The notes beneath the pieces were generated by a model, which saw nothing but the letters and a program-made list of their open reading frames with translations, searched no databases and was not told the origin of the DNA. From Alkalinema sp. RU_4_3 (lineage in GTDB: Bacteria > Cyanobacteriota > Cyanobacteriia > Leptolyngbyales > Leptolyngbyaceae), in assembly GCA_012031975.1 (NCBI GenBank), contig JAAUSA010000022.1:1-34306 (forward strand): a stretch of 34,306 nt of DNA, written 5' to 3'. Both the position numbers and the translations under genes were made by a program. This document shows, in pieces, positions 14,337 through 18,364 of this stretch (position 1 is the stretch's first letter; each line of letters begins with the position of its first letter).

Positions 14337-14591
14337 GGGTTTGGGAGAACTGGATGGAGAAGCCTGGGTGAGGTGTCATAGCCCTCACAGGAGAGTACTG
14401 TATCAAACCTCTGGAATTTGTGCGCCTATCTCAGGGTAGATACTGATGGGTAGTATCGGGTTGCCTAGGTGATGGGGGAAAGTGTTAAGGCAGTTTACGG
14501 AGCGTTAACTATTGATGCGATCTGAGACGGGGATTCAGGCTGTCGGCAACAATTAGAGGCAAGAATTTTGATGCCTCTATTAAGGAGTTTG

Positions 14592-14873
14592 ATGCTCGTG
14601 ATTACCCATTCCTTCTTGACGCTACCTTTGCTCGCTGCCATGGGCCAGACCGTTGCCTGGAGTCCTAAGGTGGCTGTTGTGATGATTATTTGTAATGTGC
14701 TGGCCATTGCGATCGGCAAGTATACGATCAAGCATCAGAATGTGGGCCTGGGTCTGCCTTCTGCCGAGTTGTTTGGTGGGATGGGCCATGGGGCGATGCT
14801 GGGTGTGACGAGCCTGGGCCATGTGATTGGGGCTGGGGCAATTTTGGGCCTGGCTAGCATGGGTGTGCTGTAG
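14592..14873 (+). CDS. psaK: photosystem I reaction-centre subunit PsaK
   Basis: Two membrane helices flank a polar loop. WSPKVAVVMIICNVLAIAIGKYTIK is the first and its loop, and a Gly-rich second helix ends in GHVIGAGAILGLASMGVL. This is the PsaK signature at the edge of photosystem I, where it helps antenna energy reach the core. An AAGGAG at 14582-14587 sits four bases ahead of the ATG at 14592, so I prefer that start. The frame is open to 14568 with another ATG at 14571. A strong terminator follows. A second psaK is at 18101-18364 on the other strand. Confidence 0.93.
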   Translation: MLVITHSFLTLPLLAAMGQTVAWSPKVAVVMIICNVLAIAIGKYTIKHQNVGLGLPSAELFGGMGHGAMLGVTSLGHVIGAGAILGLASMGVL

Positions 14874-15957: not shown

Positions 15958-17178
15958 CTACATTTCCTGGGCGGCCTGGGCGATCGATGCCAACTGTAAT
16001 CCCGGTGGATATTGGCCCGAGCTTTTGATCTGCTGGAGGGCTTCGTCGGAGAGGCTAAAGCCCAGCTTGCCCGCCACCACGCGGATGATGTCGCTGCGAT
16101 CGATCATGCCCGCCACCGCACCCGCCGGGGAAAGAACGGTGATGGCGCGATCGCTCTGCTGCTCTAGCTGGTTGATTACCTGGGCGAGAGCCGTGGTTTC
16201 GGTCACGGAGGGGATATTGCTGAGGGGCCGGGCGATCGCGCTGAGGGTTTGGGTCTCCCACTGGCTGCGTTCGATCTGCTGGACTTGGTTTAGATCGACC
16301 CGGCCCCGGTAGCGTCCGTCATGGGCGGCGAAGTAGGCGCTGGGTTCATCTAGGGCGACGATCGCATGGTCGGCGAATTCGCGCAGGTTCCAGTTGCCGT
16401 CGAGGACTCGGAAATCGCGGCTCATCACGTCCTGGGCCTTGAGATCGAGGAGAATCTGCTGGAGGTTGGCGACCTGGGTGTAGCGATCGGCGTTGCGGAC
16501 CATGAAGCTGCCGATCAGGACGGCCCAAAGACCGCCAATGGTGGGGATGCCAAACTGCTGGCTAATCCCGAAGATGTCGGCTAGTCCCAGGGCCGCGATG
16601 CCATAGCCGAGGAAGCGGCCACTGCGGGCGGCAATCAGGGTGCCTTTGATGTAGGAGCCCGTGCGTTTCCACATGGCGGCTTTGAGCACTTGGCCGCCGT
16701 CGAGGGGCAGGCCAGGTACGAGGTTAAAGATTGTCAGGACCAGGTTGAGAGTGGCGATTCGCAGGAGTAGAACGCCAAGGACTGGGTTTGTGATGGGTGC
16801 AAAAAAGACGATCGCCCCTGCAATTAAGGCCAGGGACAAACTGACGAGGGGACCTGCGATCGCCACCTGGAACATTTTACCCGGTGTCTTGGATTCGGAT
16901 TCGATGGTGGCGACGCCGCCGAAGAGGAAGAGGGTGATCGAGTTGACGTTGATGCCCTGGGATTTGGCAACGAGGCTGTGGCCGAGTTCGTGGAGCAGCA
17001 CAGAAGCAAACAGGAGCAGCGCCATGGCTAGGCCAGCGCTGTAGGCGATCGGCGCGCCCCAGGCCCGCTGAAATTCCATGCCGTCGCGCAGGGTGATCCA
17101 GCCGACGATTAGGAACCATGTCGGGTCGATATAGAGGGGAATATTGAAGATAGAGCCGACGCGCCAACCGTTTTGCAT
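15958..17178 (-). CDS. site-2 protease family (M50) metalloprotease with CBS domains
   Basis: Intramembrane zinc protease. From the chosen start it has the HExxH site at residues 63-67 (LLHELGHSLVA) and the third ligand at Asp160 in FNLVPGLPLDGGQVL. There are five or six membrane helices between residues 15 and 225. The soluble C-terminal half carries two CBS-like segments (from AQDVMSRDFRVLDGN, and from LSNIPSVTETTALAQV to AGMIDRSDIIRVV), which usually sense nucleotides. I start at the ATG at 17178, where QNGWRVGSIFNIPLYI is the family N terminus. The frame extends to 17358 but that part is unlike the family. Substrates are unknown; anti-sigma factors or membrane regulators are typical. Confidence 0.9.
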   Translation of the reverse strand: MQNGWRVGSIFNIPLYIDPTWFLIVGWITLRDGMEFQRAWGAPIAYSAGLAMALLLFASVLLHELGHSLVAKSQGINVNSITLFLFGGVATIESESKTPGKMFQVAIAGPLVSLSLALIAGAIVFFAPITNPVLGVLLLRIATLNLVLTIFNLVPGLPLDGGQVLKAAMWKRTGSYIKGTLIAARSGRFLGYGIAALGLADIFGISQQFGIPTIGGLWAVLIGSFMVRNADRYTQVANLQQILLDLKAQDVMSRDFRVLDGNWNLREFADHAIVALDEPSAYFAAHDGRYRGRVDLNQVQQIERSQWETQTLSAIARPLSNIPSVTETTALAQVINQLEQQSDRAITVLSPAGAVAGMIDRSDIIRVVAGKLGFSLSDEALQQIKSSGQYPPGLQLASIAQAAQEM

Positions 17179-17264: not shown

Positions 17265-17293
17265 CACAAAAAAAATGCTGGTTATCCCAACTT
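17265..17293. repeat. direct repeat copy A, half of a terminator
   Basis: CTGGTTATCCCAACTT preceded by CAC and an A tract is found here and again at 18025-18052. The core of 16 bases is identical. The second copy is one arm of the psaK2 terminator; this copy lacks the matching arm. Confidence 0.8.
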
Positions 17294-17375: not shown

Positions 17376-17750
17376 ATGAGCACTGATGAACTTCTTAAAG
17401 CCGTAGACAATCTGAGTGAGCCGGATCTTGCCAACCTCGTCAAGCGAGTGATGTTCGTGCGGGCAAAACATCAAGCCAACCGTTCGATCGCAGAAGAAAC
17501 TACCCTACTCCAAGAGATTCGCAAGGAGATTCCACCTGAACTCAACGATCGCTATGAGCAGCTATTAGACAAGCGAGATGATGAGACCTTGACTGAAACC
17601 GAATACGCAGAACTCCTGGACCTGAGCCGCCAGATTGAGTGCTTCGGCGTAACCCGCGTTGAAGCCCTGGCCAAACTCGCCACCATCCGCCAGGTCCCAC
17701 TCCTCAAACTCATGGACGACCTGGGGATTCAGAGTCCTGGGGTTCGGTAG
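17376..17750 (+). CDS. small conserved cyanobacterial protein upstream of an HNH remnant
   Basis: The 124-residue, fully helical, charged protein is composed of STDELLKAVDNLSEPDLANL, a middle RKEIPPELNDRYEQLLDKRDDETLT and an end LATIRQVPLLKLMDDLGI. This pattern (helical N terminus, LLDKRDxxTLTxxEYxELLxL, then a predicted Leu-rich end) recurs in cyanobacterial genomes, often directly before a small HNH nuclease gene. Whether the pair acts as antitoxin and toxin is not established as far as I know. The remnant of just such a nuclease starts immediately after it here. There is no signal peptide or metal site. The ATG at 17376 is the first in frame. Confidence 0.65.
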   Translation: MSTDELLKAVDNLSEPDLANLVKRVMFVRAKHQANRSIAEETTLLQEIRKEIPPELNDRYEQLLDKRDDETLTETEYAELLDLSRQIECFGVTRVEALAKLATIRQVPLLKLMDDLGIQSPGVR

Positions 17751-17764
17751 GACGATCGCAACCT

Positions 17765-17946
17765 ATGCCACGAGCCAGAGTTTCTTGAACTGGGATGACC
17801 ACTTTATCTGGAGCGAGGAATCGACACAGATGCTCGGGACAACGGCGATCGGGCGGGCTACCGTGGAGCTGTTGCAGACCAATCGGGAGGGTATGATCAA
17901 CCTACGGTGGGCGCTGCATCAACTAGGACTCCATCCGCCGGATTGA
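17765..17946 (+). pseudogene. HNH endonuclease with internal deletion
   Basis: At 17765 an ATG begins MPRARVS, the usual start of small cyanobacterial HNH nucleases, but a TGA follows at once. Directly after it, in another frame, comes WDDHFIWSEESTQMLG, then TAIGRATVELLQTNR, and an end in LGLHPPD. These are the C-terminal hallmarks of the same family. The roughly 100 central residues with the Cys pairs and the HNH site are missing. So this looks like one gene that lost its catalytic middle, and no nuclease can be made. It lies 14 bp after the upstream small gene, in the usual order for this pair. Confidence 0.6.
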
Positions 17947-18024: not shown

Positions 18025-18052
18025 CACAAAAAAATTCTGGTTATCCCAACTT
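18025..18052. repeat. direct repeat copy B
   Basis: This is the second copy of the A tract plus CTGGTTATCCCAACTT, 760 bp from copy A in the same orientation. The two copies bracket the small conserved gene and the HNH remnant. Confidence 0.8.
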
Positions 18053-18100: not shown

Positions 18101-18364
18101 CTACAACAGACCCGCGTTGGCCATGCCCAGGATCATCCCAGCCCCCAAAATATGGCCAAAGCTCATCGTACCGAGCATCTCAGCCACCCCAAAACCCTGG
18201 AGATAGGAAGGCGTCGCACTGCCAAGACTGGCACTAACCCCACGATTCTTGATCGCGAACCGACCGATAATCACCGAGAACAGGCAACAGGTGATCATCA
18301 CGATCGAAACCTGCGGCGACCAGGTGACAGTATGCTGAAGCGCTAGAATCAGAGTCGGGTGCAT
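18101..18364 (-). CDS. psaK: second photosystem I PsaK subunit
   Basis: The 87-residue protein has the PsaK pattern: TWSPQVSIVMITCCLFSVII, then GRFAIKNRG, and a second helix ending in SFGHILGAGMILGMANAGLL. The loop (SASLGSATPSYLQGFGVAEM) differs clearly from the copy at 14592, so the two are paralogs rather than a recent duplication. In Synechocystis one of two PsaK forms is induced by high light and aids energy transfer from phycobilisomes; which role applies here is unknown. A GAGG sits seven bases ahead of the ATG at 18364. It is divergent from trpF across 169 bp. Confidence 0.92.
   Translation of the reverse strand: MHPTLILALQHTVTWSPQVSIVMITCCLFSVIIGRFAIKNRGVSASLGSATPSYLQGFGVAEMLGTMSFGHILGAGMILGMANAGLL

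Follow-up and report, generated by a model that had tools for sequence, protein, structure and literature searches.

The 34,306-nt stretch of the draft genome of Alkalinema sp. RU_4_3 analysed here (the window; contig JAAUSA010000022.1) carries an open reading frame for a small helical protein, directly followed by pieces of an HNH nuclease gene. This raises the questions of whether the two genes belong together, what such a pair may do, and how this copy came to its present state. An earlier note made from the letters alone had described the locus as a decayed two-gene module.

The copy in the window

The module consists of the following features:
17376..17750, + strand: small partner gene, open, 124 codons (124 aa), a putative antitoxin-like partner
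17765..17785, + strand: what is left of the 5′ end of the HNH nuclease gene, encoding MPRARVS, ATG at 17765 and TGA at 17786, assigned by eye against intact starts
17786..17787, + strand: deletion junction at which the frame is broken, placed from the sequence and the HNH profile match
17788..17946, + strand: what is left of the 3′ end of the HNH nuclease gene (the 3′ remnant), in another frame, 52 codons and the stop, model positions 90-141

This HNH module is widespread, and the window contains a disarmed remnant of it. The earlier note had recognised the MPRARVS start and the C-terminal end of the nuclease with an out-of-frame junction between them, and its coordinates proved right. The 3′ remnant matches positions 90-141 of a 12-row HNH profile with an E-value of 1.1e-21, so the match is not due to chance, and it retains all 13 columns that are invariant over that stretch in 12 intact relatives. 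Compared with the intact gene of Leptolyngbya sp. NIES-3755 (L008; BAU15690, annotated as 'HNH endonuclease' and paired with BAU15689 on plasmid1), the window gene lacks codons 8-89, i.e. 82 codons or a net loss of about 244 nt. The loss had been put at about 100 residues including the active site; the size has to be reduced, but the invariant HNH-core residues C, C, H, C, C and N do fall within the missing segment. These metal-binding residues are present in the intact copies, whereas in the window the entire core is deleted, and with the core gone and the frame broken this copy can make no active nuclease. Internal deletions that drop the HNH core and keep the 3′ end are seen in different genomes (L001, which is the window copy, L010, L026 and also L119); the first 7 codons are left at the 5′ end in the window, the first 9 in L010 and, judged by eye, most of the first 7 in L026.

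The small gene is intact, as the earlier note had it, and its product is 61-68 % identical over the full length to its five closest relatives. The deletion next to it looks recent from the sequence comparison, because pN/pS of the 3′ remnant is no higher than that between intact copies: it is 0.25-0.33 against four intact copies, 0.25-0.38 among those four (six pairs) and 0.25-0.47 against all ten copies compared. After a recent deletion an intact neighbouring small gene is expected even without selection, and its good state is by itself no evidence of selection.

Pairing of the nuclease gene with the small gene

We read 85 loci with the HNH gene, comprising all of the first 67 matches listed by the profile search and 18 lower ones (three more from genome G000 and fifteen sampled). 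The gene was full in 78 loci and damaged in seven (L009, L019, L027, L033, L075, L077 and L089). An intact small gene lies directly upstream on the same strand in 76 of the 78 full loci, mostly overlapping the HNH gene or a few bases apart, which is the arrangement of two adjacent co-oriented small genes found in type II toxin-antitoxin modules. The linkage and common order of the two genes, which the earlier note had assumed, are thus borne out. In one of the two exceptions (L018) the small gene lacks its 5′ half and adjoins a sequence that we read as transposase-like, and in the other (L050) it is frameshifted near the 3′ end. At the seven damaged loci the small gene is open in five and damaged in two (L075 and L089), so the partner or its remains stand directly upstream in all 85 loci. 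The HNH genes of one subclade, which had seemed solitary, turned out to have the partner with a longer overlap. The possibility that the C-terminal segment is a complete small protein was rejected, as in the loci read it is always part of a full HNH gene or of a remnant.

The intact HNH protein matches Pfam family PF01844 with an E-value of 1.9e-12 and solved HNH chains from 1.3e-7. Among 58 cyanobacterial genomes searched with the HNH profile, 38 have matches at E 1e-20 or better and 57 at E 1e-8, although for 19 of the 57 this rests on weak matches which may be other HNH proteins; the module seems to be common in cyanobacteria. A genome may have several divergent copies. In that of the window (G000) six more sites match the small protein (L002-L007), with a full HNH gene behind each (the match at L007 is weak and belongs to another partner type), and the HNH profile has 13 matches at E 1e-8 or better. 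Relatives of the HNH gene were also found on 34 plasmid records, and the 30 listed are cyanobacterial by name. A phage-borne family was ruled out: ten loci on viral contigs match mainly the HNH core, and the phage collection gave two records of one Lactobacillus phage, matching residues 3-70 only.

Some loci deserve separate mention. On plasmid pP880101 of Rippkaea orientalis PCC 8801 (L186), an IS4-family transposase gene stands between the small gene and the HNH gene, and a HicA/HicB toxin-antitoxin pair lies in the vicinity. An apparently intact pair (L189) is found on a contig of 104 kb (JAKEEU010000194.1) assigned by binning to candidate division KSB1, which represents either a transfer outside cyanobacteria or a binning error. 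A further HNH match, a partial one, immediately precedes the small gene at L040, L078 and L084, which suggests tandem modules.

The small protein and its partner types

The AlphaFold model of the window small protein consists of helices only (pLDDT 86). Searches against Pfam and NCBIfam gave no family, its profile found seven PDB chains with a best E-value of 0.058, none convincing, and fold comparison returned generic helical hairpins with no hit reaching Z 8 and nothing specific. No DNA-binding domain was recognised in it by the Pfam, NCBIfam, PDB and fold searches.

Five partner alignments, compared as profiles, revealed a common C-terminal helical hairpin preceded by differing N-termini. 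The six hairpin comparisons gave E-values from 3.5e-5 to 7.5e-9 with hhalign probabilities of 72-96 %. The best value is that of the window type against the ribbon-helix-helix (RHH) type (7.5e-9), where some RHH-like members of the window-type alignment carry the match on into the N-terminal part. The Phd/RelB-like type against the RHH type gave 6.6e-8 and the window type against the 'QPSSW' type 3.9e-7, and the other three comparisons gave 2.0e-7, 5.2e-6 and 3.5e-5 (the last at the probability of 72 %).

For an RHH-type partner, the predicted structure (pLDDT 88) has VapB, CdbA and CopG as its top Foldseek hits (prob 0.92-0.96, E above 2), and RHH chains (PutA, CopG, Arc and the CopASO antitoxin) align weakly to about residues 1-47 of the model, with Z about 3. 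The RHH-type profile found N-terminal matches in the PDB, which we take to be RHH proteins, and a hairpin match to YnzC, at E 0.1-0.5. For some partner types single sequences gave Pfam matches to HicB, FitA-like RHH and RelB-like families, all below the cut-off. The two-helix hairpin of YnzC (UPF0291) from Bacillus subtilis resembles the C-terminal part of the partners. Against the RHH-type model L081 it aligns at Z 5.1 over 52 residues with 2.2 Å, but the matches are not significant by profile (E 0.14-0.39) or, for the window model, by Foldseek (prob 0.77-0.82, E 2.9 and more), and the likeness may be that of a mere common hairpin. We know of no HNH partner of YnzC/UPF0291.

Small genes without an intact nuclease

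We then looked at the pairing from the side of the small gene. In total 116 loci were collected, 36 from the initial searches and 80 from a class-wide search of 291 genomes, in which up to 15 candidates were scored per genome and the counts are lower bounds; all 80 new matches listed down to E 4.8e-20 were used and weaker ones excluded. Four loci were set aside, three at contig ends (L031, L136 and L166) and one cut by the edge of the sequence examined (L139). Partner genes of types other than that of the window were assigned by position and by eye rather than with a family model, and L076 on its position alone.

Among the 112 evaluable loci the HNH gene is intact in 60, damaged in 15 (L027 and L129 included) and absent in 37, which leaves 52 without an intact nuclease gene, or 49 of 108 when four in which the small gene is damaged are excluded too. 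Collecting pairs from other genomes, as the earlier note had proposed, thus shows that order and co-occurrence hold from the HNH gene to the small gene and not in reverse. The difference between 52/112 and the 2/78 full HNH genes lacking an intact small gene gives a Fisher p of 1.6e-12, a value to be read with the loci being related and not independent and the two samples coming from different searches. Operon polarity could explain part of this asymmetry, as the small gene comes first and the HNH gene overlaps it, and losing the former may silence the latter.

Small genes lacking the nuclease also appear to be under selection. The median dN/dS is 0.18 for pairs in which both lack the HNH gene (14 pairs; the highest value is 0.51 for L032 with L174), compared with 0.14 for pairs in which both have it (49 pairs, one involving L027, which is counted as damaged). 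The small genes L147 and L159 have the same gene downstream and differ with a dN/dS of 0.21; their HNH gene probably disappeared before the two diverged. The low dN/dS in the absence of HNH means that small genes often seem to be kept for a function without their own nuclease, and judging from these sequences the solitary genes would fit protection against, or regulation of, related nucleases. The idea of a disarmed toxin-like copy with its protective partner kept therefore gains ground for the family; in the window, where the deletion looks recent, the intact small gene is no evidence of such protection.

Three solitary small genes stand beside genes of toxin-antitoxin type, namely ParE (L029), a nucleotidyltransferase with HepT (MNT-HepT, L120) and DUF433 (L128). 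The gene at L032 (G056:C112) joins the small-protein domain to a C-terminal extension which we read as a DUF433-kind antitoxin, for which a Pfam search gave no family, and we also read a PIN-like frame on the opposite strand.

Position between direct repeats

What the earlier note overlooked is the insertion of the module between direct repeats. The flanks contain:
15958..17178, - strand: M50 peptidase gene, left neighbour, which with psaK forms the gene order interrupted by the module
17269..17293: 25-nt direct repeat beside the module, left-hand copy, agreeing with the other at 24 of 25 positions
18028..18052: right-hand copy of this repeat, starting 759 nt after the start of the left-hand one
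18101..18364, - strand: psaK (photosystem I), right neighbour, gene order kept in several relatives

The 15-nt core of the repeat has two exact matches in the assembled 5.25 Mb genome, both flanking this module. The order of M50 peptidase and psaK was found in seven of the 29 loci read in relatives (psaK being incomplete in one), and the other 22 have no psaK within the stretch examined. In the six relatives measured, the gap between the two genes is about 100-210 bp, compared with 922 bp in the window; subtracting the repeat spacing of 759 from 922 leaves 163, an ordinary gap. The span in the window plus the deleted length amounts to about 1.0 kb, and the other repeat-flanked copies span 0.92-1.13 kb. 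A single copy of the 25-nt repeat was not recognised in the peptidase-psaK gap of six relatives, where the gaps are too diverged. A further gene of the psaK family (PF01241) lies at 14568-14873 (+), about 3.2 kb from the one at 18101-18364 (-), so that the two flank the peptidase gene and the module; in the region of these two genes there is 72 % complementarity over 79 nt.

Direct repeats scoring 14 or more flank 12 of 73 loci, as opposed to none of 300 mismatched control pairings, and the number may be low because for many of the later loci only 200 nt upstream were examined. The repeats are clearest at L123 (82 nt), L025 (77), L003 (56), L164 (53), L004 (41), L019 (33) and in the window (25), and weak at four of the 12 loci (L022, L033, L117 and L023). 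The repeat of L146 (66 nt) is dispersed in many copies and is for that reason no evidence of a target duplication. The flanking repeats differ in sequence between loci; the core of the L003 repeat occurs only twice in G000 and the L025 repeat only twice in G024. In the repeat-flanked loci that were inspected, the space between the repeats is taken up by the two genes, with no transposase or integrase and no fixed ends, and both repeat length and the distances from genes to repeats vary.

An apparent empty site was found for L123 of genome G105. The congeners G196 and G056 have the unique 1.6 kb right flank and one repeat copy (85 nt) but no module, and past the single repeat the sequence that follows the other repeat copy in G105 continues for about 120 nt in G196 and 39 nt in G056. 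The module is also absent in G225, G166 and G190, where the repeat copy is shortened, while in G280 the site is occupied, with a damaged HNH gene and without the right repeat copy; G083 shares only the left side. An exact gain or an exact loss of the unit at this site is likely from the comparison. One flank is unique, and the left flank next to the repeat is a sequence dispersed in the genus; part of the repeat also stands upstream of small genes at other places (G166 and G142). Given this dispersed flank and the repeat beside other small genes, homologous exchange between repeats (e.g. integration of a circle) may account for the duplication just as readily as target duplication. The ~150 nt sequence adjoining the site has dozens of copies in genus g41, many of them clustered at about 3.50-3.53 Mb of G201:C1. 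No empty site was found for L164, where the flank diverges before the repeat, for L025, the flank of which has no match in three congeners, or for L146 with its dispersed repeat.

Proposed function and alternative explanations

We consider it somewhat probable that the small gene and the HNH gene form a type II toxin-antitoxin-like pair with an HNH effector. The first gene would encode the small helical protein, with its variable N-terminal part dimerising and, in the RHH types, binding the promoter of its own operon (autoregulation). The conserved C-terminal hairpin would bind and restrain the HNH nuclease encoded by the second gene (neutralisation). A nuclease released from its partner may cut DNA and so harm or arrest the cell (toxicity), or it may cut invading DNA. 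In the window a single internal deletion took the HNH core and broke the frame, leaving no active nuclease; production of the small protein probably continues, and it might counteract related nucleases encoded elsewhere in the genome (cross-protection).

Type II modules with RHH or Phd/RelB-type antitoxins include VapBC, ParDE and FitAB. The pair resembles them in its two small, often overlapping genes with the small partner first, in its occurrence on plasmids and its patchy multi-copy distribution, in partners that are often left alone and in partner N-terminal domains that differ and are in part DNA-binding-like. It differs in that the second gene is HNH and not PIN, RelE/ParE, MazF or Fic, that the partner in the window has no recognised DNA-binding part and that the pair is known from sequence. 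To our knowledge, HNH nucleases are not among the usual type II toxins.

The nearest rival to this reading, which we regard as unlikely although the two are not mutually exclusive, is a restriction-like defence effector in which the HNH protein would cleave incoming foreign DNA, with the small protein as a sensor or a specificity or inhibitory subunit. The best PADLOC matches of the HNH protein are to PtuB of Septu (E 5.6e-13), with a type IV methyl-directed enzyme lower down (1.7e-7), and several divergent copies per genome, such as the 13 of G000, would suit defence. The HNH core is indeed shared with Septu PtuB, McrA, the HNH domains of Cas9/IscB and the HNH endonuclease 4h9d, but the nuclease of the module is ~140 aa long and has a conserved W..HF...GRATV...HPP tail, and its neighbour is a small helical protein and not PtuA or Cas proteins. 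In Septu the PtuB-like HNH gene directly follows that of the PtuA ATPase, whereas the immediate upstream neighbour at the 85 HNH loci is the small gene or its remains and no ATPase; moreover, there is no obvious reason why purifying selection should preserve a sensor on its own. The repeats raise instead the quite unlikely possibility of a selfish mobile unit, in which the nuclease would cleave target sites and bring about the insertion of the ~1 kb module while the small protein controls expression or targeting. The 12/73 loci against 0/300 controls, the single repeat copy at the apparent empty site in sister species and the interrupted peptidase-psaK order in the window speak for it. The variable repeat lengths and module-repeat distances without fixed ends count against it, as do the dispersed repeat of L146 among the 12, the 61 of 73 loci without a clear repeat (200 nt upstream being examined at later loci) and the empty site that is unique on one flank only, where homologous exchange is possible.

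A bolder combination, to which we give a little less credence again, would make the pair a minimal self-spreading element of ~1 kb without a transposase, with mobility and addiction as one system. The HNH protein would make or exploit breaks at which the module is captured with a target duplication of 25-85 nt, the small protein would tame the nuclease and punish loss, and nuclease-dead copies such as that in the window would be an immobile, harmless end state. We find it very improbable that the nuclease is an ordinary gene with a translationally coupled leader-type ORF and that the solitary small genes are passive leftovers. The short gaps or overlaps between the genes would agree with this, but the C-terminal part common to small proteins with differing N-termini, and dN/dS values well below 1 for small genes that stand alone, would not. 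Hardly credible, finally, is an assembly or sequencing error in the window: the genome is a draft in 362 contigs and the only one of its genus among those searched, but a clean internal loss of ~244 nt is untypical of read errors and internal losses recur in other genomes (L010, L026 and L119).

Relation to described systems and implications

The closest precedent for the repeats in the literature searched is a ParE/ParD-like module of Microcystis aeruginosa PCC 7806, which lies next to MaOC1 between two direct repeats. It is likewise a cyanobacterial two-gene module with overlapping genes and the antitoxin first, but its repeats are 152 bp long and identical and its toxin is of ParE type and not HNH (PMC7935541). 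An HNH toxin is not named in the accessible portions of Makarova et al. 2009 (PMC2701414) and of a survey of type II systems in Synechocystis (PMC4963859), and those of PMC6293099 and PMC10440598 gave no account of the pair. The earlier note had believed the function of the pair not to be described, and this agrees with the literature searched: among the matches listed, with thin coverage of subscription journals, we found no description of the pair or of an HNH effector in a toxin-antitoxin system.

If the pair is toxin-antitoxin-like, it would be a common cyanobacterial system with an HNH effector that we have not found described as such. The broken copies could reveal the role of the pair, as naturally disarmed copies with the small gene kept offer a direct test of whether a lone small protein protects against the nucleases of paralogs. 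The repeats and the apparent empty site provide a starting point for finding out how small modules of this kind move.
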